The position numbers and the translations under genes were made by a program. The notes under the pieces are model-generated. The model had not been told where the DNA came from. It did not search any database and saw only the letters and a program-made list of their open reading frames with translations. This document shows, in pieces, positions 474 to 10,848 of a DNA stretch of 32,154 nt (position 1 is its first letter; each line of letters opens with the position of its first letter). Origin of the DNA: a virus; IMG/VR virus record IMGVR_UViG_3300031857_000838, positions 1 to 32,154 of that record, one strand, 5' to 3'.

Positions 474-1844
474 ATGGAAACTACATACAACCCGCAGTAC
501 ATGATCGACACGATCCTAATTGCTGCAAACATTCTCAAATATGGTGGCGAGCCAATCACCACACGCCGCCTTGATGGGGGCTACGAATGCAACCTATCCG
601 TGCCACACCGTGAATGGCATCGCCGTGAGCAAGACCGATACCCACTGCACCCTGCCATCACCAAAGCCATCGCTCTTGCACGCCCCGATAATTGGCAGCG
701 CCTGCTGCTGGAGTGGCCGCACGTACCCACAACCATCACCGACAAGGGCCGGGTTGCCTACACACAGAGCGAAGCCAAGGCAGAGCGTGACGTGCAGACT
801 GTCACCTCACTGGGCAAATACCTGCGCTCACACTTCACCATGCTGCCCGATCACGCCATACGTGACATCGTGGCCAGCGTCACAGCCACAGGCATGAAGT
901 TCGTGCACACCACAGCCGAGATGATATTCCACCTGCACCGGGGGCCACACTCTTGCATGGTATGGAACGGAAGCGATGTGGATGAACACCCGTACCGAAC
1001 CTATGACCCCAAGTATGGCTGGCACATGTGTGTGCACATTGAGGGCGATGACACCGTGGGCCGTGCGCTGTGCTACCAAAGCGGCGATGAGAAGTTCTAC
1101 GTGCGTAGCTACCGCAAGACCGGGGGCTATTCATCCAGCGATGAGCAGATGGAACAGTGGCTGGCTGAGCAAGGCTACAAAAAGCGTGGTGGGTGGGAGA
1201 GCTGCTACCTTGCCCGGCTGCCGGGTATTACCCATTCCTGTGACTTCCTTGCACCCTACCTCGATGGGGACACACAGCGCGTGGACACCACACACCTGAA
1301 CGGTGAGCGTTGCTTGGTCATCACTGAAGATGGCGAGTACGAATGCACCAACACCGATGGCACTTACGATGATGCGGACATGACCACATGCGAGTCATGC
1401 AGCGACCGTATCCGTGAGGGCGATGGGTATTGGGTTGGCCGTAATGAGGACACGATGGTGTGCGAGTACTGCCGTGATGAGTACTACCGCTTTGCGTATG
1501 GCCGCAACGGGAACCAATACTACGTGCATGAAAATGACACCGTGTACGTGGAGTCGCAGGATGAGTACTACCACGACAGCTACCTCGGTGACAACGGCAT
1601 CATCTACCTTGCCAATGGTGAGTACGAGCACGAGGACAACGCTGTGCAGATCGATGACGAGTGGTATCACGTGGATGACGATGACATCGTGTGCCTTGAC
1701 AACGGGGACTATGCCCTGCGTGACGATGCATACGAGTGTGCCGAGTCTGGCAAGTGGTACAGCAAAGATGACGAGCCGCCCGTTGAAGTGGATGGCAACC
1801 TGTATCACCCCGACAACGTCCCTGAACAAACCGAAACCGAATAA
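474..1844 (+). CDS. Phage zinc-ribbon protein with C-terminal acidic tandem repeats
   Basis: This 456-aa protein has three parts. Residues 1-300 form a globular region typical of conserved phage hypotheticals, with GPHSCMVW near 157-164, an aromatic YDPKYGWHM segment near 177-185 and APYLDGD near 260-266. Residues 306-333 hold a zinc ribbon with C306, C309, C330 and C333. Residues about 345-450 are strongly acidic and consist of six or seven units of roughly 15 residues, such as NGEYEHEDNAVQID, DEWYHVDDDDIVCLD and NGDYALRDDAYECAE. The function is unknown; the repeats could form a binding surface or a DNA mimic, which is speculation. It heads the peptidase and MoxR/VWA neighbourhood and lies behind element E1. 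The start ATG follows ACGAAAGATGAT. Confidence 0.85.
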   Translation: METTYNPQYMIDTILIAANILKYGGEPITTRRLDGGYECNLSVPHREWHRREQDRYPLHPAITKAIALARPDNWQRLLLEWPHVPTTITDKGRVAYTQSEAKAERDVQTVTSLGKYLRSHFTMLPDHAIRDIVASVTATGMKFVHTTAEMIFHLHRGPHSCMVWNGSDVDEHPYRTYDPKYGWHMCVHIEGDDTVGRALCYQSGDEKFYVRSYRKTGGYSSSDEQMEQWLAEQGYKKRGGWESCYLARLPGITHSCDFLAPYLDGDTQRVDTTHLNGERCLVITEDGEYECTNTDGTYDDADMTTCESCSDRIREGDGYWVGRNEDTMVCEYCRDEYYRFAYGRNGNQYYVHENDTVYVESQDEYYHDSYLGDNGIIYLANGEYEHEDNAVQIDDEWYHVDDDDIVCLDNGDYALRDDAYECAESGKWYSKDDEPPVEVDGNLYHPDNVPEQTETE

Positions 1845-1886
1845 TTCCTACCGAGTAGCAGAGCCAAGCTCTGCTAGGACTAGGAA
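1845..1886 (+). promoter_or_regulatory. Inverted-repeat leader element E2 (TTCCTA...TAGGAA)
   Basis: TTCCTA (1845-1850) and TAGGAA (1881-1886) flank a 9-bp hairpin TAGCAGAGC (1856-1864), CAA, GCTCTGCTA (1868-1876). It is the counterpart of element E1, with one G-C pair of the stem changed to A-T. The right arm contains the AGGA that is the best ribosome site for the peptidase gene starting at 1893, so pairing of the arms could hide that site. The regulatory role is inferred. Confidence 0.6.
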
Positions 1887-1892
1887 AAACCA

Positions 1893-2990
1893 ATGAGAAA
1901 CATCATGCACAAAAATTCTATCCTTCACAAAACTCTCGCCCGTGCTTTGTCCATTGCACGCCCACACAACACCAAGGCCACGATGTATTTCACACAGTGG
2001 CTGCAAGACGCACTGCCCAAGCATCTGCAAGAGGGCGCATGGCGTGACGTGGCTGGCAATCTGCACATCGATGCACGCTCAAGCACCAAGCACCGCACGC
2101 TGTTCGTTGCCCACGTTGACACTGTGCACAAAGACGTTGCACCCAACAAGATTCGCAAGACCGACACACACTGGCATGCTGACGGTGCGCCCCTCGGTGC
2201 AGACGATGGTGCTGGCTGCGCGATGCTCATGCACATGATCCACAAGAACGTGCCGGGTTACTACGTGTTCACCCAAGGCGAAGAATGTGGCGGCATCGGT
2301 GCGACCCACCTTGCTGAGCACTACCCACAGCTGCTGTCTGAGTTCGACCGTGCCATTGCGTTCGACCGCCGGGGTATCGACAGTGTCATCACACACCAAG
2401 GGTATGGGCGCTGCTGCTCAGATACGTTCGCTCAGCACTTGGCCGATGAGTTGAATGCGACCAACGACAACCTGATGTATCTACCCGACAACACCGGTGT
2501 ATATACAGACACAGCCGAGTTCACAGCCATCATCCCCGAGTGCACCAACATCAGCGTGGGCTACGACCGTGAGCACAGTGACCAAGAGTCCCTTGACATC
2601 CTGCACTTCAAGCAACTGTCCGAAGCTGTGACCAAGGTGCGATGGGACATGCTGCCTGCCGAGCGTGAGCCGGGAGTAGACGATATGGAGTATGGGTTCG
2701 CAAGCTACAAGACCTTTGGGTATCCAGCGTATGACGAGCACCAGCCCATCACCGCACACTTCCTTGACACTGAGGATGCAGTGATCGCTGCGTTCCGTGG
2801 CGTGACCAAACCACTGGTGACCCTGATGTGTGAGAGTGTGTACCCCGAAGACCCAGCGATGGCCGAGCGGTATATCAACACCAAGAAGCTGACCGATGAG
2901 GTGCTGGAGCAGCTCGAAGACCTGCTGTACAGCAGCAACCCCGACACCATGCTGGCAACAGCGTATGACCTTTGCTACACAGGAGCATGA
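1893..2990 (+). CDS. M20/M28-like di-zinc metallopeptidase family protein
   Basis: This 365-aa protein carries the ordered metal-site motifs of co-catalytic zinc peptidases: AHVDT with H74 and D76, GADDGAG with D104, GEE with E130 (general base) and E131, FDRR with D158, and YDREHSD with H228. All five expected ligands are present, so it is probably active as an aminopeptidase or carboxypeptidase, though related folds include amidohydrolases. No signal peptide is seen, so a cytoplasmic role is likely. It sits between the zinc-ribbon repeat protein and small ORFs, upstream of the MoxR/VWA genes. Its AGGA ribosome site lies in the right arm of element E2. The C-terminal ~110 residues (after about 255) show no motif I know. 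The substrate is unknown. Confidence 0.85.
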   Translation: MRNIMHKNSILHKTLARALSIARPHNTKATMYFTQWLQDALPKHLQEGAWRDVAGNLHIDARSSTKHRTLFVAHVDTVHKDVAPNKIRKTDTHWHADGAPLGADDGAGCAMLMHMIHKNVPGYYVFTQGEECGGIGATHLAEHYPQLLSEFDRAIAFDRRGIDSVITHQGYGRCCSDTFAQHLADELNATNDNLMYLPDNTGVYTDTAEFTAIIPECTNISVGYDREHSDQESLDILHFKQLSEAVTKVRWDMLPAEREPGVDDMEYGFASYKTFGYPAYDEHQPITAHFLDTEDAVIAAFRGVTKPLVTLMCESVYPEDPAMAERYINTKKLTDEVLEQLEDLLYSSNPDTMLATAYDLCYTGA

Positions 2991-2991
2991 G

Positions 2992-3120
2992 ATGAAATAC
3001 AAAGGCCCACCCAAGCCTATCCCAACACACCGTGAACCCATGTCCGATCGTGCCGAGTTGATCTGGTTCATCGTGCTGGCGGTAATTTTTGTTTTGTTTT
3101 TGGTATTGGAGGTGGTATGA
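2992..3120 (+). CDS. Small single-span membrane protein
   Basis: This 42-aa ORF starts one base after the peptidase stop, with AGGAG at 2981-2985 as its ribosome site. Residues 1-22 are polar with several prolines; residues about 23-42 are a continuous hydrophobic segment (LIWFIVLAVIFVLFLVLEVV), a clear transmembrane helix running to the C-terminus. The stop overlaps the next ATG by 4 nt. Small phage membrane proteins can affect lysis, superinfection exclusion or host membrane enzymes; none can be assigned here. Confidence 0.7.
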   Translation: MKYKGPPKPIPTHREPMSDRAELIWFIVLAVIFVLFLVLEVV

Positions 3121-3233
3121 AACTTTTACGCAAACTGTTCACGGCCAAGTGCTGTGAGTGTGGTGAGGTACGTGTCTGGTGGTGGCAGCGCCGCTGTGAC
3201 TTCTGTGACGTAGGTGAAGGGAAAATGAAATGA
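3117..3233 (+). CDS. Small zinc-ribbon protein
   Basis: This 38-aa ORF is coupled by ATGA overlaps at both ends. It has two CxxC pairs, CECG near residues 13-16 and CDFC near 27-30, separated by a WWWQRR stretch, a compact zinc-ribbon knuckle. It is short but embedded in an unbroken chain of overlapping genes, which supports it being real. The function is unknown; zinc binding is inferred from the Cys spacing. Confidence 0.6.
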   Translation: MKLLRKLFTAKCCECGEVRVWWWQRRCDFCDVGEGKMK

Positions 3234-3523
3234 AAGACACGAACAAGTGGCACTTCGTTCAGCACTTCTCGCCTTACTACGACTACGACAAAGAGTTGTA
3301 CTCGCTGCCCGATGAGGGCAACACAAGCGTGGATATGCGCCTGACGTTCAATGCGGACGACAACACCTGCTATTACACGATCAGCTTGCACAACAATGAC
3401 GGGCAAACCCGTGATTGGGAGAAGGCCCACCACATACCGTGGGCTGTAGGCCTTGCCATGCTTGACGCCGATGGCGTAACTTTTTCCAAGACCCCGCGAA
3501 ATAAAGTTCGCGATTTTCCATGA
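3230..3523 (+). CDS. Hypothetical phage protein
   Basis: This 97-aa protein starts at an ATG that overlaps the preceding stop. It is rich in aromatic and acidic residues, with FSPYYDYDKELYSL near the N-terminus and CYYTISLHN in the middle; the alternating pattern suggests mostly beta structure. I do not recognise a family. Its 3' end contains a CGCGAA/TTCGCG hairpin followed by ATTTT, and the next gene has its own promoter, so it is probably the last gene of this transcription unit. Confidence 0.65.
   Translation: MKDTNKWHFVQHFSPYYDYDKELYSLPDEGNTSVDMRLTFNADDNTCYYTISLHNNDGQTRDWEKAHHIPWAVGLAMLDADGVTFSKTPRNKVRDFP
3495..3517 (+). terminator. Putative intrinsic terminator at the 3' end of the 97-aa gene
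   Basis: CGCGAA (3495-3500), loop ATAAAG, TTCGCG (3507-3512), then ATTTT. The stem is six perfect base pairs and the T-run is short, so strength may be modest. It lies inside the last codons of the gene ending at 3523 and directly upstream of the promoter at 3532. Confidence 0.45.
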
Positions 3524-3531
3524 GGTGTTGT

Positions 3532-3560
3532 TTGACACAACCCCCAAACTCCTTTATAAT
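3532..3560 (+). promoter_or_regulatory. Consensus sigma70 promoter
   Basis: TTGACA at 3532-3537 and TATAAT at 3555-3560 are separated by exactly 17 nt, a perfect match to the bacterial housekeeping consensus. Transcription should begin near 3567, giving a leader of about 30 nt that contains GAAAGGAAAC before the ATG at 3599. It is the strongest promoter I can find in the window and is probably used by host RNA polymerase early in infection. Confidence 0.9.
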
Positions 3561-3598
3561 GTAATCTTCACTTTGTAAACCCCGAAAGGAAACTTGAA

Positions 3599-3961
3599 AT
3601 GAGTATCATCGAACAAACCGTTCAGAACGCTATGCGTTTGCTCAAGGCTACCAAGGCCAAATACATCATCGTCATGCCCGATGGCACGACACACAGCGAG
3701 GGCGACCTGCAGCTGGCTGAGGTCAAGACCCGCGTACGTAAAGCTGGCCCGCTCCCGATGGGCACTTACTCCACCATGTGCAAGCCATACAACAACATGG
3801 CCGTGGGTGATGTGGCAGAGTTTGACATTCCACCGGGCGGCACAGGCAAGAGTTTGCACAGCGGCGTCACCGCGCACTTCATCAACTTGTGGGGCAAAGG
3901 TGCAATGAAGTCCTGCTTCAACAAAAACACCCAAAAGGTCGAAGTGCTGCGTATCGGCTGA
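3599..3961 (+). CDS. Conserved hypothetical phage protein, strongly promoted
   Basis: This 120-aa protein is read from a consensus promoter, has a good ribosome site (GAAAGGAAAC) and is followed by its own hairpin terminator, so it forms a single-gene transcription unit likely to be made early and in quantity. The N-terminal third is helical and basic (MRLLKATKAKYIIVMPDG); the middle has GTYSTMCKPYNNMAVGD and a glycine-rich turn IPPGGTGK. I recognise no catalytic motif. Abundant small early proteins are often DNA-binding or host-modulating, but that is only inference from expression signals. Confidence 0.85.
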   Translation: MSIIEQTVQNAMRLLKATKAKYIIVMPDGTTHSEGDLQLAEVKTRVRKAGPLPMGTYSTMCKPYNNMAVGDVAEFDIPPGGTGKSLHSGVTAHFINLWGKGAMKSCFNKNTQKVEVLRIG

Positions 3962-3975
3962 GAACTGGTAGCTTT

Positions 3976-4003
3976 TGTGGGGCACACCATCCCACACCTT
4001 TTT
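3976..4003 (+). terminator. Intrinsic terminator after the 120-aa gene
   Basis: TGTGGG (3976-3981) pairs with CCCACA (3991-3996) across a 9-nt loop and is followed by CCTTTTT (3997-4003). It lies 15 nt after the stop at 3961 and separates this unit from the DUF3150/MoxR/VWA genes. The T-run overlaps the left arm of palindrome E3. Confidence 0.65.
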
Positions 4004-4017
4004 CCTACGCGTAGGAA
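4002..4017 (+). promoter_or_regulatory. Perfect 16-bp palindrome E3 in the leader of the DUF3150 gene
   Basis: The 16 bases TTCCTACGCGTAGGAA are a perfect palindrome with the same TTCCTA/TAGGAA arms as elements E1 and E2. The following TTTCTTCAACTTAAC and ACGAAACATCATG resemble the leader of the gene at 474. A dyad this regular suits a dimeric DNA-binding protein; it could also fold in RNA. The regulator is not identified. Confidence 0.6.
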
Positions 4018-4044
4018 TTTCTTCAACTTAACTTACGAAACATC

Positions 4045-4914
4045 ATGGCAATCAAATCACTTTCATCTTCAGCGATGCTGCTCGATCTGCATCTGTCCGT
4101 GTACACGGGCCGCAAGCAAGACAAGGCTACTGCCGCAGAGATCAACATCAGCAAGAACACACGTTCATCCAAAGCTGCATCGGTGTACAAGTCACTCTTC
4201 ACCGAGGACAAAGACCTCGAAGCCATCGCGTCCTACGCAGGGCGCGTGCGCACTTGGCTGTACAGCGTAACCCTTCCATGGGCTGACTCGGGCACACGCC
4301 TTGTACCAACCAAAAACTTCTTTGACATCACGCATGAGTTGGCAGAGCACGAGCGCGAGTTCAACCGCCTTGTGGATATGTTCATCAACAATTATGGCGT
4401 GAAGGTTTCATCGCAAGCGTTCAAGCTGGGCAAGCTGTTCGACCCCAAAGAGTTCCCCAACGCTGCAGAGCTGGTGCACAAGTTCGGGTTCAACTATGTG
4501 TTCACTCCTGTGCCATCGTCAGGCGACTTCCGTGTGGACATCCCTGCAGCAGCTGCACAACAGGTGGTCGCTCAGTTTGAGCGTGAGCACAACAAGCGTA
4601 TGCAAGAAGCCATGCGCGAGCCGTGGGAGCGCCTGTACCAAGAGATCAAACACATCAAGGACAAGATGATCGACAAGGAAGACGGCAAGCCCCAGAAGCT
4701 GTACCAATCCATGCTCGACAATGCGCTGGCACTGTGCGGCACGCTCACATCCTTGAACCTGCTGGATGACCCGGACCTTGAAGCTGCACGCCGTGCGCTT
4801 GAGCAATCCCTGACCGACATTGATATTGTGTCTCTGCGCAAATCACCCGAGGTGCGTGAAGCCATCAAGATCAAGATGCAAGACCTGACAGATAAATTTT
4901 CATTGGAGATTTAA
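4045..4914 (+). CDS. DUF3150-like protein of the MoxR/VWA cassette
   Basis: This 289-aa, largely helical protein (long charged helices around residues 100-125, 170-215 and 240-285) matches my memory of the DUF3150 family, whose genes often sit beside a MoxR/CbbQ-type AAA+ ATPase and a VWA-domain protein in phages and plasmids. Here the ATPase and VWA genes follow directly apart from an inserted HNH gene. It has no obvious catalytic motif and may be a structural partner or adaptor of the ATPase. The start follows ACGAAACATC and the E3 palindrome. The family assignment is from memory and context, not a search. Confidence 0.75.
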   Translation: MAIKSLSSSAMLLDLHLSVYTGRKQDKATAAEINISKNTRSSKAASVYKSLFTEDKDLEAIASYAGRVRTWLYSVTLPWADSGTRLVPTKNFFDITHELAEHEREFNRLVDMFINNYGVKVSSQAFKLGKLFDPKEFPNAAELVHKFGFNYVFTPVPSSGDFRVDIPAAAAQQVVAQFEREHNKRMQEAMREPWERLYQEIKHIKDKMIDKEDGKPQKLYQSMLDNALALCGTLTSLNLLDDPDLEAARRALEQSLTDIDIVSLRKSPEVREAIKIKMQDLTDKFSLEI

Positions 4915-4934
4915 ATGGGGCTGACCCAAGAGCG

Positions 4935-4950
4935 TATACTGTGGTAAAAC
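4935..4950 (+). promoter_or_regulatory. Possible promoter of the first HNH gene
   Basis: TATACT (4935-4940) resembles a -10 box and is followed by GTGGTAAAAC. A TGGTAAA box is also found upstream of the second HNH gene (13244-13250), so it may travel with this element. No good -35 is present at the right spacing, so this is tentative. Confidence 0.35.
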
Positions 4951-4981
4951 ATGGTCATGTACTTAGCAAAAGGAGTCAGTG

Positions 4982-5491
4982 ATGCCCAGTCTAAAAGGAA
5001 CCACAAACCCGTCTTTCAAGCACGGCCAGTATGTAAACGGGAAGCCGTCAACCATTTATCTGCGATGGCAGAACATGAAGGCCCGTTGCTTACAGCCCTC
5101 ACACAAAGACTACGCCAAATACGGGGCGAAGGGTGTGACCATATGCGATAGATGGGCATATGGAGCAGACGGTTTGAGCGGATTTGAATGGTTCATTTTG
5201 GATATGGGGCCACCCCCATTTGCTGGTGCATCAATTGACCGCATAGATGGGGCCCAAGGATATGGTCCCAACAACTGCCGATGGGCAACCTTGGCAGAAC
5301 AGGCTACCAACAAGCGCAACACCCGGTGGCTAGAAATAGACGGAAAGAGCAAGCCCTTGACCGTATGGGCAAAGGAAGCAGGTATTGGGCCAAAGACGGT
5401 TCATTACCGCTTAAAGCGCGGCCTCAGTGCCAAAGATGCAGTATTTCTGCGGATCGATAAATCAACCTTTTTAAACGAAAGAACATCATGA
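4982..5491 (+). CDS. HNH/AP2-type homing-endonuclease-like protein (copy 1)
   Basis: This 169-aa protein has the pattern of free-standing phage HNH/AP2 endonucleases: YLRWQNMKARC (26-36), YAKYGAKGVTICDRW (44-58), SIDRIDGAQGYGPNNCRWAT (84-103), then a C-terminal helix-turn-helix-like segment LTVWAKEAGIGPKTVHYRL (126-144). Such genes are mobile and cut DNA at or near their insertion site. A GTG lies three bases upstream, but the ATG at 4982 is better spaced from AAGGAG (4970-4975). It separates DUF3150 from the ATPase gene, and its last codons overlap the ATPase start by 4 nt. It is homologous to the protein at 13280 and keeps the SIDRID residues that copy lacks. Confidence 0.8.
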   Translation: MPSLKGTTNPSFKHGQYVNGKPSTIYLRWQNMKARCLQPSHKDYAKYGAKGVTICDRWAYGADGLSGFEWFILDMGPPPFAGASIDRIDGAQGYGPNNCRWATLAEQATNKRNTRWLEIDGKSKPLTVWAKEAGIGPKTVHYRLKRGLSAKDAVFLRIDKSTFLNERTS

Positions 5492-6543
5492 AATCAGCAA
5501 TCACACGTAATGAAGTGGTCGATCTTATCTGCGCCATCGGCGCAGACGTGACCTGTGTTGTAGAAGGAGATATTGGCAGCGGGAAGAGCGCCATTCTTGA
5601 TGATGTCAGTGAGCGGTTCCCCAACCACCGCAAGATGTACCTTGACATGACCGTCATGCACGAGGGTGACTTCCGTGTGCCTGCTGTGGACCACGCGACC
5701 AAGTCCTCCGAGTTCTATCCGAACGCTTCGCTGGGTATGCACGACAACACGCCGGTCGTCCTCATGCTGGATGAAATGGGCAAGGCCACCAAGCCCGTCA
5801 AGGATGCGTCCCTGCCCCTGCTGGTCGAGCGCCGCTTGGGTAACCAGCGCCTGCACCCTGACTCCATCGTGTTCGCAACAACCAACCTTGGTGCTGAGTC
5901 TGTGGGCGATACGTTCCAAGCACACCACCGCAACCGCATGTCATTCGTGCAGATGAAGAAACCCACGGCGCAAGAGTGGGTGGACAACTGGGCACGGTTC
6001 AATGACATCGCCCCCGAGATCATCATGTGGGTGGGTGAGCGCCCCGATGTGCTGCACTCGTTCGAGGACTACAAAGAGCCCAACGACAACCCGTTCATCT
6101 TCCATCCACGGGCACAGCGCACTGCGTTCGTGACACACCGGTCACTGGCACAAGCCAGCAAGATCGTGAACAAGCGCCACCTGTATACCCCGAACGCGCT
6201 GGAGTCTGCGCTGGTAGGTACGGTGGGTGCACCTGCTGCTTTGGACCTGCAAGCGTGGATCGCCATGGGTGACAGCCTGCCCAAGCGCACCGAGATCATC
6301 AACGACCCGGAGAACGCACGCATGCCCAAGGAAGTGGCGGGCAAGCTGATGCTGGCCTACCAAGCGCTCAACTGGGTGGATGAGCAGACCCTTGACCCGT
6401 GGATGGATTACATGGCACGCATGCCCCGTGAGATGCAGGCACTGTTTTGCACGTCCATCATCAAGAAGCCTGCCAAGCAGTTCACGCTGGAGAACGAGAA
6501 GTTCACCACGTTCGCCATCGACAACCAATACATGTTTGCGTGA
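5488..6543 (+). CDS. MoxR-family AAA+ ATPase
   Basis: This 351-aa protein has a Walker A motif GDIGSGKS (27-34), Walker B VLMLDE (91-96), a sensor-1 asparagine in ATTNLG (N133) and arginine-finger candidates in HHRNRMSF (R148, R150). The length and the short loop after Walker A fit MoxR/CbbQ-type ATPases, which work with VWA proteins as chaperones that insert metals, activate enzymes or remodel complexes. The metallopeptidase/VWA partner gene follows 7 nt downstream and DUF3150 lies upstream of the inserted HNH gene. The start ATG overlaps the HNH stop; the preceding ACGAAAGAACATC resembles the leader at 4045. The client is unknown. Confidence 0.9.
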   Translation: MKSAITRNEVVDLICAIGADVTCVVEGDIGSGKSAILDDVSERFPNHRKMYLDMTVMHEGDFRVPAVDHATKSSEFYPNASLGMHDNTPVVLMLDEMGKATKPVKDASLPLLVERRLGNQRLHPDSIVFATTNLGAESVGDTFQAHHRNRMSFVQMKKPTAQEWVDNWARFNDIAPEIIMWVGERPDVLHSFEDYKEPNDNPFIFHPRAQRTAFVTHRSLAQASKIVNKRHLYTPNALESALVGTVGAPAALDLQAWIAMGDSLPKRTEIINDPENARMPKEVAGKLMLAYQALNWVDEQTLDPWMDYMARMPREMQALFCTSIIKKPAKQFTLENEKFTTFAIDNQYMFA

Positions 6544-6550
6544 GGTCACC

Positions 6551-7702
6551 ATGAAGATGACACCCTTGCAGCGCATCGAGCGTGCGCATGTATCCCTCAT
6601 CCGAGACCCGGAGTTCATGTGGTTGTCCGGCATCATCGTCATGGGCAACAACGTAGTGACCACCCAGCCGGGTATCACCGCACGCACCGATGGCGTTAAT
6701 GTCGAGTACAGCGAAGCCTTCATTGCCAACCTGACAGATGCAGAACTCATGGGCCTTGTGCTGCACGAGAAGCTGCACTGTGCGTTCAAGCACCTGACCA
6801 CATGGCATCACCTGTACGAGGACGATGCGCAACTGGCCAACATGGCGTGTGACTTTGTGATCAACCTCATGATCGCAGATCGTGCGGCCAAGGATGGCTT
6901 TTTGCGCCTGCCTGCTGGCGGGTGTGTAGACGAGCAGTACCGTGGCATGGACTCTGGCCAAGTGTTTAAGATGCTCAAGAAGCAATACCCAAACGGTGCG
7001 CCCAGTGGCAAAGGATTCGACCAGCACGATTGGGATGCGGCCAGCGAGCTGACACCAGAGGAAGTCGATGAACTTGCCAAGACCATCGACCAAGCATTGC
7101 GGCAGGGCAACATCCTTGCAAGCAAGGCGGGTGCGAATGTGGACCGCTCGGTGCTTGAGATGCTGCAACCCAAGGTGGATTGGCGTGATGCGCTGCGTGA
7201 GTTCGTGAGCAATACCAAACCCGGTGACGACTACACCACGTACCGCCGCATCAACCGCAGGTTCCAGAGCCAAGACCTGATGCTGCCCACAAGTTATTCC
7301 GACACCATCCACAGGGTTGTGTTGGCTGTGGATACATCGGGTTCGATCGGTGGCCGGGAGCTGGCCGAGTTCCTTGCAGAAGCGCAGTCCGTGTGCGAGT
7401 CTGTTAAGCCTGAACTTGTGGATTTGCTGTATTGGGGGCATGATGTAGCCGCACATGAACAATACGAAGCAGATGCGGTAAGCACTTTGCGCGACAGCAC
7501 CAAGCCGAGAGGAGGTGGTGGCACAGCGCCGAGTTGCGTGACCGAATATCTGCGCGATCAGAACATCCGTCCTGATTGCATTGTCATGCTCACCGATGGT
7601 GATGTGTTCGGGGATTGGGGCAATGACTGGCCCGCCCCCGTTTTATGGTGTATCAACAACTCGCACAACAGTGCGCCACACGGTGTCACCGTGCATATGT
7701 AA
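6551..7702 (+). CDS. DUF2201-type metallopeptidase/VWA-like protein
   Basis: This 383-aa protein joins two modules. The N-terminal part has a zinc-peptidase signature LHEKLHCAFKH (HExxH at 72-76) with a downstream acidic candidate ligand in ACDFVIN (D101). The C-terminal part is VWA-like: VVLAVDTSGSIGG with the MIDAS residues DTSGS at 261-265, a GGGGT segment at 321-325 and VMLTDGD near 345-351. It fits the DUF2201 family, the usual partner of MoxR-type ATPases. An in-frame ATG far upstream inside the ATPase gene is unlikely; ATG 6551 lies just after the ATPase stop. It may recognise or cleave clients delivered by the ATPase; the target is not known. Confidence 0.88.
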   Translation: MKMTPLQRIERAHVSLIRDPEFMWLSGIIVMGNNVVTTQPGITARTDGVNVEYSEAFIANLTDAELMGLVLHEKLHCAFKHLTTWHHLYEDDAQLANMACDFVINLMIADRAAKDGFLRLPAGGCVDEQYRGMDSGQVFKMLKKQYPNGAPSGKGFDQHDWDAASELTPEEVDELAKTIDQALRQGNILASKAGANVDRSVLEMLQPKVDWRDALREFVSNTKPGDDYTTYRRINRRFQSQDLMLPTSYSDTIHRVVLAVDTSGSIGGRELAEFLAEAQSVCESVKPELVDLLYWGHDVAAHEQYEADAVSTLRDSTKPRGGGGTAPSCVTEYLRDQNIRPDCIVMLTDGDVFGDWGNDWPAPVLWCINNSHNSAPHGVTVHM

Positions 7703-9605: not shown

Positions 9606-9859
9606 CACCCGAACAAAAAGCGTATTACGAAAAAGAGCTACGTGAAATTCGCAGTGGTGGATATGAGCATGACGCTTATGTCGTGAAGGACATTCATGGA
9701 CTTGGCGGCTACATAGGCCCTGTTGATCCGCCTGTTGTTGGGTTTGGACAGGATGGCGATCCGTTTTATCAGCAGTACCTACGCAACTGGGATGAGGTTG
9801 AAAAATTGATTTCCCAACTGCGAGAAGAAGCAACAAAGGCATGGGGAGAGCAAGCATGA
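9602..9859 (+). CDS. Hypothetical phage protein
   Basis: This 85-aa protein begins MTPEQKAYYEKELREIRSGG and ends in a charged helix, VEKLISQLREEATKAWGEQA. A central glycine/proline segment (GLGGYIGPVDPPVVGFGQ) is probably a loop. The start overlaps the previous stop, with AAGGGAAAAC as ribosome site. It is not a member of the flanking paralogous family. The function is unknown. Confidence 0.65.
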   Translation: MTPEQKAYYEKELREIRSGGYEHDAYVVKDIHGLGGYIGPVDPPVVGFGQDGDPFYQQYLRNWDEVEKLISQLREEATKAWGEQA

Positions 9860-10233
9860 GAGACACGATAGACATGACCCGTGAAGACATTTCCCGCATG
9901 GCCCGTGAGGCTGGCTTTGTAGGCTTTGATGGAGAAAACGGATCGCTTCGCCGCTTCGCCGCTCTTGTCCGTGCTGATGAGCGTGAGGCGTGCGCAAAGC
10001 GGCAATTGGTTGGGCTGACTGAGGATGAAATTGACGAGATTTTTAACAATTGGCCTACATACAACTTAGACCATTACGAATTTGCCCAAGTCGTTGAAGC
10101 CAAGGTATTTGAGAAGAACTTAGCAACAGCAGTGGTCATACCAGATGTTCTGAATCCAAAAGATGAGAATCCCGCTTTTGCAGCAGGCTGGAACGATTGC
10201 AGAGCAGAGATGTTGAAAGGAAGAACCGAATGA
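9856..10233 (+). CDS. REACAK family protein, diverged (paralogue 3)
   Basis: This 125-aa protein keeps the N-terminal blocks of the family (RDTIDMTRED, MAREAGF, FAALVRADEREACAK). It then departs into LVGLTEDEIDEIFNNW and a C-terminal FAAGWNDCRAEMLKGR segment typical of other small phage proteins, and lacks the RARGNT end. It looks like a hybrid in which the family N-terminus has been joined to a different tail. The start overlaps the preceding stop. The function is unknown. Confidence 0.7.
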   Translation: MRDTIDMTREDISRMAREAGFVGFDGENGSLRRFAALVRADEREACAKRQLVGLTEDEIDEIFNNWPTYNLDHYEFAQVVEAKVFEKNLATAVVIPDVLNPKDENPAFAAGWNDCRAEMLKGRTE

Positions 10234-10553
10234 ACAACACCATTCAATTTCACAGCGGAACGCCAGCAACAGAAGTTTTGCGCTTGTCTAAAGATGGCAT
10301 ATGGGCCAATCCTGACATCCCTGCTGATGACGCAGCCAAGCTGGTTCTTGAGGCTATTGACGACAACATCAAGATTTTGGTGCAGAAGGCTGTGCTTGCC
10401 GAAAGAGAGGCGTGTGCAAAGGTGTGTGAAGAATTTGCACGTAAATGGTGGAAGATCCACTGCGACAGCAACCTTCACTACTCATCAACACTCAAGGCCC
10501 ATCAGGATTTCTGTGCCCTGCAAGTTGCCATCCGAGCAAGGGGGAACATATGA
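10230..10553 (+). CDS. REACAK family protein, C-terminal half shared (paralogue 4)
   Basis: This 107-aa protein has a different N-terminus (TIQFHSGTPATEVLRLSKDG, then ANPDIPADDAAKLVLEAI) joined to the family blocks EREACAKVCEE and AIRARGNI. It shares 29 identical bases with the first paralogue. Its end again serves as ribosome site and start (AGGGGGAACATATGA) for the next gene. The N-terminal part is reminiscent of short conserved phage proteins. The function is unknown. Confidence 0.7.
   Translation: MNNTIQFHSGTPATEVLRLSKDGIWANPDIPADDAAKLVLEAIDDNIKILVQKAVLAEREACAKVCEEFARKWWKIHCDSNLHYSSTLKAHQDFCALQVAIRARGNI
10401..10429 (+). repeat. 29-nt direct repeat, copy 2
   Basis: Identical to 9145-9173 and in the same frame, encoding EREACAKVC. 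Confidence 0.85.
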
Positions 10554-10681
10554 AGATATTTCTTGCTTGGTTTGGCGCGGCACACATCATCGCCACGGTC
10601 CTCGGCGCATTGGGTGCGATTGACTATTACTTGTGCATCAGCGAGCCGGGCAAATGTATACCAAAAAAGGGGAACACATGA
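10550..10681 (+). CDS. Small membrane protein
   Basis: This 43-aa ORF starts at the ATG of AGGGGGAACATATGA. Residues 3-25 (FLAWFGAAHIIATVLGALGA) form one hydrophobic helix, followed by a short tail with two Cys and the ending KKGNT. It is likely a single-pass inner-membrane peptide. Its 3' end AAGGGGAACACATGA provides the signals for the next gene. The function is unknown. Confidence 0.6.
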   Translation: MKIFLAWFGAAHIIATVLGALGAIDYYLCISEPGKCIPKKGNT

Positions 10682-10848
10682 CCTACGACTACCAAGGATC
10701 GCTGGCGCAGAAGCTAGTGGACGAGCTGCTGGAGGTGGTTCACAGGTACGACGAAGCGATGGTGCTGCCCACCGCCCTCGGATGCCTTGACCTCGCCAAG
10801 CTGCAACTGTTGCAAGAACACATGGAGGATGACGAAGATGACCTGTAA
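10678..10848 (+). CDS. Small acidic helical protein
   Basis: This 56-aa protein is helical and ends in a very acidic tail (EHMEDDEDDL). The start overlaps the previous stop and follows AAGGGG. The helix AQKLVDELLEVVHRYDEAM is amphipathic and could mediate dimerisation. The function is unknown. Confidence 0.6.
   Translation: MTYDYQGSLAQKLVDELLEVVHRYDEAMVLPTALGCLDLAKLQLLQEHMEDDEDDL

Follow-up and report, generated by a model that had tools for sequence, protein, structure and literature searches.

Genomic organization of the region

The virus record IMGVR_UViG_3300031857_000838 of IMG/VR, analyzed here over its 32,154 bases (the window), carries at positions 474-7702 five genes that belong to two separate modules, which are neighbours in one freshwater phage clade. 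Module A comprises an acidic-repeat protein and a di-zinc peptidase, and module B a DUF3150 protein, a MoxR-type AAA+ ATPase, and a metallopeptidase fused to a VWA domain. A preliminary description of this DNA had proposed these five genes, and open reading frames (ORFs) and family searches find all of them in the window, with one correction: the VWA gene starts at 6551 and not at 6380, a position that falls within the ATPase gene. Between the DUF3150 and MoxR genes lies an HNH endonuclease gene (4979-5491) that had not been listed. The whole cassette is on the same strand as the DNA polymerase gene, and the large ORFs at 24-32 kb are on the opposite strand. The features of the region are as follows.

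426-441, no strand: dyad TTCCTACCAGTAGGAA, ~33 bp upstream of the repeat-protein start; exact match, same element in 11/12 relatives
474-1844, + strand: repeat protein, module A, 456 residues; helical N-terminal part, weakly GNAT-like segment at ~138-240, zinc ribbon, acidic Tyr-rich β repeats
1845-1887, no strand: split dyad copy, TTCCTAC and TAGGAAA separated by 29 nucleotides that hold a second hairpin
1893-2990, + strand: di-zinc peptidase of the M28/M20 kind, module A, 365 residues; Pfam, PHROG, and profile searches
3230-3523, + strand: small ORF, 97 residues, no family match; membership of neither module shown
3532-3560, + strand: perfect sigma-70 consensus (TTGACA-17-TATAAT) upstream of the 120-residue gene; a consensus match only
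3599-3961, + strand: 120-residue gene, kept at the same position in most of the clade
3976-3996, + strand: terminator-like hairpin immediately upstream of the second dyad; weak basis
4002-4017, no strand: dyad TTCCTACGCGTAGGAA upstream of the DUF3150 gene; exact match
4045-4914, + strand: DUF3150 protein, module B, 289 residues; Pfam
4979-5491, + strand: HNH endonuclease (PHROG 3377, 4e-44); apparent insertion between DUF3150 and MoxR
5488-6543, + strand: MoxR-type AAA+ ATPase, module B, 351 residues; PHROG 1297, profile match, conserved residues
6551-7702, + strand: metallopeptidase-VWA protein, module B; zincin-like HExxH (H72-E73-H76) fused to a VWA domain with a metal-ion-dependent adhesion site (MIDAS; D261, S263, S265, T325, D349)

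The HNH gene is missing between DUF3150 and MoxR in the relatives L012 and L010. Terminator-like sites number 10 in the region versus 7.8 expected, which makes the hairpin at 3976-3996 weak evidence for a terminator.

Linkage and separability of the two modules

Profiles built from the alignments of this analysis were used to scan 160 loci, fetched either by DUF3150 or by the repeat protein. The DUF3150-fetched virus loci are the best 80 of 405, and since all loci are mutually related and their ranking followed similarity to the window, the counts that follow are not independent samples. Among the loci with full flanks (5 kb or more on each side), DUF3150 is accompanied by MoxR and VWA in 33/33 virus loci and by the peptidase/repeat pair in seven of the 33; reciprocally, the repeat protein is accompanied by the peptidase in 31/31 and by the trio in 4/31. 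In 65 of the 77 repeat/peptidase loci the modules are apart, as they are in 62 of the 74 DUF3150+VWA loci. Searches of whole records report neither DUF3150 nor VWA anywhere in the 27 contigs that hold only the module A pair, and no peptidase in the 26 trio-only contigs, both positive controls being detected. When the flank filter is lifted, the profile scan counts 13 DUF3150 loci that possess VWA but no detected MoxR, and three that possess neither partner nor the module A pair. The 61 loci with a complete trio have its genes always on the same strand, in several gene orders, and the three genes are co-inherited: over 20 loci, pairwise protein distances correlate with r of 0.93-0.95 within the trio versus 0.72-0.82 with the DNA polymerase, shared ancestry inflating all of these values. 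Among the recognised genes near the trio, Holliday-junction-resolvase-like and DNA polymerase genes are the most frequent.

Within the clade of the window, the picture is one of synteny. The close relatives L003-L013 share the order repeat protein, peptidase, DUF3150, MoxR, VWA; the order of the clade, with the 120-residue gene after the peptidase, is conserved at protein identities down to roughly 45-70%. The expectation that the five genes would co-occur in related phages holds for the closest relatives; outside them the test goes against the link, the modules being mostly separate in both directions. This bears on the idea of a single five-gene machine, which the peptidase and the repeat protein would serve as components or clients of MoxR and its partners. 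Besides the synteny of the clade, the modules are adjacent in several distant contigs (L033, L056, L144, and L082), once with a different internal order; however, they are separable both ways in most genomes and the trio loci of bacteria and plasmids carry no repeat protein or peptidase, so that the counts largely refute the idea and leave it highly improbable. The earlier inclusion of these two proteins in the machine is therefore abandoned, while the proposal of a self-contained MoxR/VWA remodelling or proteolytic set, here with DUF3150, is supported.

Proteins of module B

Pfam analysis of the VWA protein reports two hits far over the cutoff, with DUF2201_N (63.3 bits) and DUF2201 (56.4 bits). 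The conservation of active sites was scored in alignments of 63-76 relatives: HExxH is kept in the 67/67 relatives having those columns, and the MIDAS D, S, S, T, and D in all 72-75 relatives with those columns. With both domains, HExxH, and MIDAS, the protein is a member of the DUF2201 family whose protease activity is only predicted. The ATPase is assigned to PHROG 1297 ("ATPase", 1.9e-41). Taken as a single sequence, it stays under every Pfam cutoff (AAA_5, 15.6 versus 22 bits; bpMoxR, 12.6 versus 27), a test of MoxR membership that is convenient and not strictly defining. The profile of its family returns, among PDB structures, midasin (9e-24) and CbbQ/NorQ (1.4e-5 to 1.7e-5), and its predicted motif residues are found in all relatives covering them: K33 of Walker A in 57/57, D95 of Walker B in 60/60, the sensor-1 Asn N133 in 59/59, and the arginine finger R150 in 59/59. 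As judged from profile and motifs, it is a diverged MoxR-type AAA+ member. Small proteins of 84-130 residues lie between MoxR and VWA in L002, L003, L004, L007, and L011, several of them alike with an ADAWLIL-type N-terminus; none is found there in the window.

The match of the third protein with DUF3150 (PF11348) reaches 29.5 bits, above the gathering cutoff of 24.9. Its predicted fold returns no clear match in the PDB (best Foldseek E-value 0.82). The VIA comparison of the model lists mostly helical bundles, with Z up to 8.8, which cover the C-terminal half only, the other parts being barely tested. A literature search for DUF3150 found no paper; MoxR/VWA pairs are already known in phages.

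Proteins of module A

The peptidase scores 28.8 bits with Pfam M28 against a cutoff of 21.3, and its profile matches the structures of peptidase T and tripeptidase. The residues resembling metal ligands (H74, D76, D104, E130, E131, D158, and H228) are kept in 70-71 of 72 relatives, so that score and conserved putative ligands make it an M28 peptidase by prediction. As the predicted active-site residues of both modules (HExxH, MIDAS, Walker A/B, sensor 1, arginine finger, and peptidase ligands) are nearly invariant in the relatives, they argue for selection on function, the activities themselves being predicted.

The repeat protein, in contrast, returns no family match. The cysteines of its zinc ribbon (C306/C309/C330/C333) are kept in 73-74 of 74 relatives, and the net charge over residues 301-456 is -34; no other phage protein with such an acidic tail turned up in a search. 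The predicted structure is locally confident, and the arrangement of its domains is not (predicted local distance difference test, pLDDT, 88.4; predicted TM-score, pTM, 0.54). Among the VIA rows listed, GNAT-type proteins align with residues ~138-240 with a best Z of 6.8 (93 residues, root-mean-square deviation 3.5), a Z below 8 being one that a common arrangement can give. Foldseek returns a best E-value of 0.013, and inspection by eye shows no clear acetyl-CoA loop motif (Q/RxxGxG/A) in the stretch that separates the predicted strand (206-214) from the predicted helix (224-232). The model thus gives weak evidence that the middle of the protein may resemble the GNAT fold. The phiKMV acetyltransferase Rac was considered as a relative and dropped, as it has another genome position and no linked peptidase is mentioned. 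Module A is a separate early function from module B.

Distribution and resemblance to known systems

The trio extends well beyond the clade. It is present in 12 of the 13 bacterial-genome loci, the 13th being cut at the contig start; these loci, which include Niastella and a Bryobacterales bin, came from a scan with a plasmid-based alignment, after two scans that gave nothing usable. It is also carried by the three inspected plasmids (L014, L184, and L185). Module B is found on plasmids of Burkholderia, Rhodovastum, and Simplicispira and in the Synechococcus phage MinM2. Among plasmids, the VWA and DUF3150 queries return the same record counts (Burkholderia 13, Cupriavidus 8, Paraburkholderia 8, Caballeronia 4, and Variovorax 4). 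Module A has its own distribution: the repeat protein and the peptidase are side by side in the Klebsiella Drulisvirus SU503 (gp10/gp11) and in the Rhizobium phage Pasto (gp4/gp5), but no MoxR/VWA/DUF3150 is seen in the region, and the complete SU503 record contains neither VWA nor DUF3150.

The MoxR-VWA pair also occurs alone. In N4-like phages (Schitoviridae), the ATPase adjoins a protein matching the same VWA/metallopeptidase profile (gp035/gp036 of S6), but DUF3150 is found neither in the region nor in the whole S6 record; a hidden DUF3150 relative beside MoxR-VWA was likewise not found in the Thermus phage phiFa or the plasmid pSYSA. Because the pair occurs without DUF3150 in these elements, and DUF3150 without VWA in Tunturi_3 (see below), MoxR-VWA forms the core, with DUF3150 as a dedicated partner that is often present. 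Group 2.2 jumbo phages possess the same type of pair (Iyer et al. 2021, PMC7824862), their MoxR AAA+ ATPase adjoining a vWA protein whose N-terminal domain is a metallopeptidase, but DUF3150 is not mentioned there. The role proposed in that work is virion assembly, with MoxR/VWA acting on phage structural proteins as a chaperone and a processing protease, and an archaeal virus cited in it requires a peptidase-less MoxR-vWA system for tail assembly. For the trio, such a role is very unlikely, since plasmids and bacterial genomes carry it too and since, in the window, it lies among early/replication genes, with the large ORFs at 24-32 kb on the other strand.

Proposed function of module B

NorQ/NorD and CbbQ/CbbO associate a small MoxR ATPase with a VWA partner, as module B does, but with another partner architecture and with known cellular client enzymes. 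RavA/ViaA also join a MoxR ATPase to a VWA partner, but ViaA is not known to be a DUF2201 metallopeptidase protein. In NorQD, a complex that remodels an enzyme, the VWA domain binds the pore of the ATPase ring and plugs the ring (PMC9976466). By analogy, module B should remodel a client, which its metallopeptidase domain may cut. A stricter parallel would make the trio a chaperone that opens a specific enzyme for the entry of a metal or cofactor, the HExxH binding metal without cutting. NorQD operates so (PMC9976466), and the ATPase profile finds NorQ and CbbQ, the small MoxR ATPases whose structures have been studied; however, the families tested include no client enzyme whose gene consistently accompanies the trio, and we regard this role as quite unlikely.

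We lean instead towards module B being an ATP-driven remodeller or protease with DUF3150 as adaptor and a host or DNA-metabolism protein as target, module A being independent. The MoxR ATPase would form a ring on which the VWA domain docks through its MIDAS metal site, presenting or plugging the substrate; the zincin-like domain would then cut or hold this substrate, chosen by DUF3150 as a dedicated adaptor. Module B would act early in infection. The presence of the trio on plasmids and in bacterial genomes, together with its early position in the phage, makes a protein of the host or of DNA metabolism a more likely target than one of the phage shell. A special case of a host target is counter-defence, in which module B would dismantle or cut a restriction or immunity complex of the host soon after DNA entry. 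The carriers are phages and conjugative plasmids, elements that must establish themselves in a new cell, and the position in the phage is early, but PADLOC analysis reports no relationship beyond noise; this special case seems unlikely. Tentatively, and with rather low confidence, MoxR, DUF3150, and metallopeptidase-VWA could be generalized to a three-part ATP-dependent protease, not yet described as a trio, common to phages, conjugative plasmids, and some bacterial genomes and used early by mobile elements to dismantle a particular protein or complex of the host, DUF3150 being the substrate selector.

Several points weigh against the function that we favour for module B. Its ring, complex, and activity are predictions only, and metallopeptidase domains with an intact HExxH may be inactive. 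The adaptor role of DUF3150 is drawn from linkage, in loci that are mutually related (the best 80 of 405) and do not count independently, and the protein could be a client instead. Lastly, the 97.6-kb record of Tunturi_3 (L019), deposited as complete, contains a DUF3150 homologue (9788-10744) with no detectable VWA protein. MoxR/VWA pairs are widespread with few known clients, and this compact trio, which has a metallopeptidase in its VWA partner and a recurrent third protein in otherwise unlike phages and plasmids, offers a simple system to find the targets of such machines.

Dyads of the early region

The preliminary description had noticed a leader shared by two genes and taken it as a possible mark of clients or accessory parts. 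The element itself is real: TTCCTACNNGTAGGAA, a dyad with 7-bp arms and a 2-bp centre, is an exact match at both 426-441 and 4002-4017, and its 14-base core is present in 11/12 relatives. Its meaning is another, because the dyad is spread across the whole early region and hence does not mark clients. The better-covered relatives have 5-8 copies each over this region, and in the two relatives of 65 kb every one of the 7-8 copies falls within the final 8 kb of the contig, which is the early end. L003 and L012 possess an intact dyad at the place of the split copy of the window (1845-1887). TTCCTACNNGTAGGAA is absent from the 67 loci holding the module A pair only, which often carry different dyads. 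Some perfect dyad with 6-bp arms occurs in at least four copies in 103 of the 164 loci of at least 8 kb, compared with at most two after one two-base-block shuffle per sequence. In a deduplicated set with a crude gene call, 238 of 446 copies are intergenic, versus 55 expected. MinM2 carries GGTTCAGNCTGAACC 14 times, several copies being 23-30 bp upstream of a start codon. Dyad-bearing early regions include L003-L012, L015, L036, L110, and L120, the dyads being lineage-specific.

Among 72 dyad sites in 14 loci, 51 are perfect and 21 have one or two mismatches, none of which is compensated. Given this lack of compensation, RNA hairpins maintained for base pairing are not favoured, and the dyads fit lineage-specific putative protein-binding sites better than paired RNA. 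A family-by-family comparison for the cognate regulator gave candidates confounded by phylogeny. In a close relative (L013/L105 versus L004/L114), the dyad is changed to GTCATANNNNTATGAC; the identities between the two are 32% for the first early protein, 72% for the peptidase, and 85% for DUF3150. The first early protein is a lead for the putative dyad-binding protein. The SAS/ESAS (start-associated sequence and extended SAS) of cluster K mycobacteriophages similarly occur in many copies in the non-structural half, with an inverted-repeat consensus that varies by subcluster (PMC3203893). However, ESAS are 17-bp imperfect inverted repeats that adjoin a 13-bp SAS located at the start codon, whereas the dyads of the window are short and perfect, with 7-bp arms, a 2-bp centre, and no SAS-like element seen, and are not classed as ESAS. 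At 400-445 and 1845-1887, the window contains an extra nested hairpin (AGCAGRGC...GCYCTGCT), missing at the matching L012 or L003 sites, as if small hairpins had been inserted in both leaders.

Database labels

The metallopeptidase-VWA family is labelled "HNH endonuclease" in phrog_1314 and in phage records such as OZ196439, and the DUF3150 gene of Tunturi_3 bears the same label. For the metallopeptidase-VWA family this is likely a misannotation, and the present analysis corrects the database label of the VWA protein.

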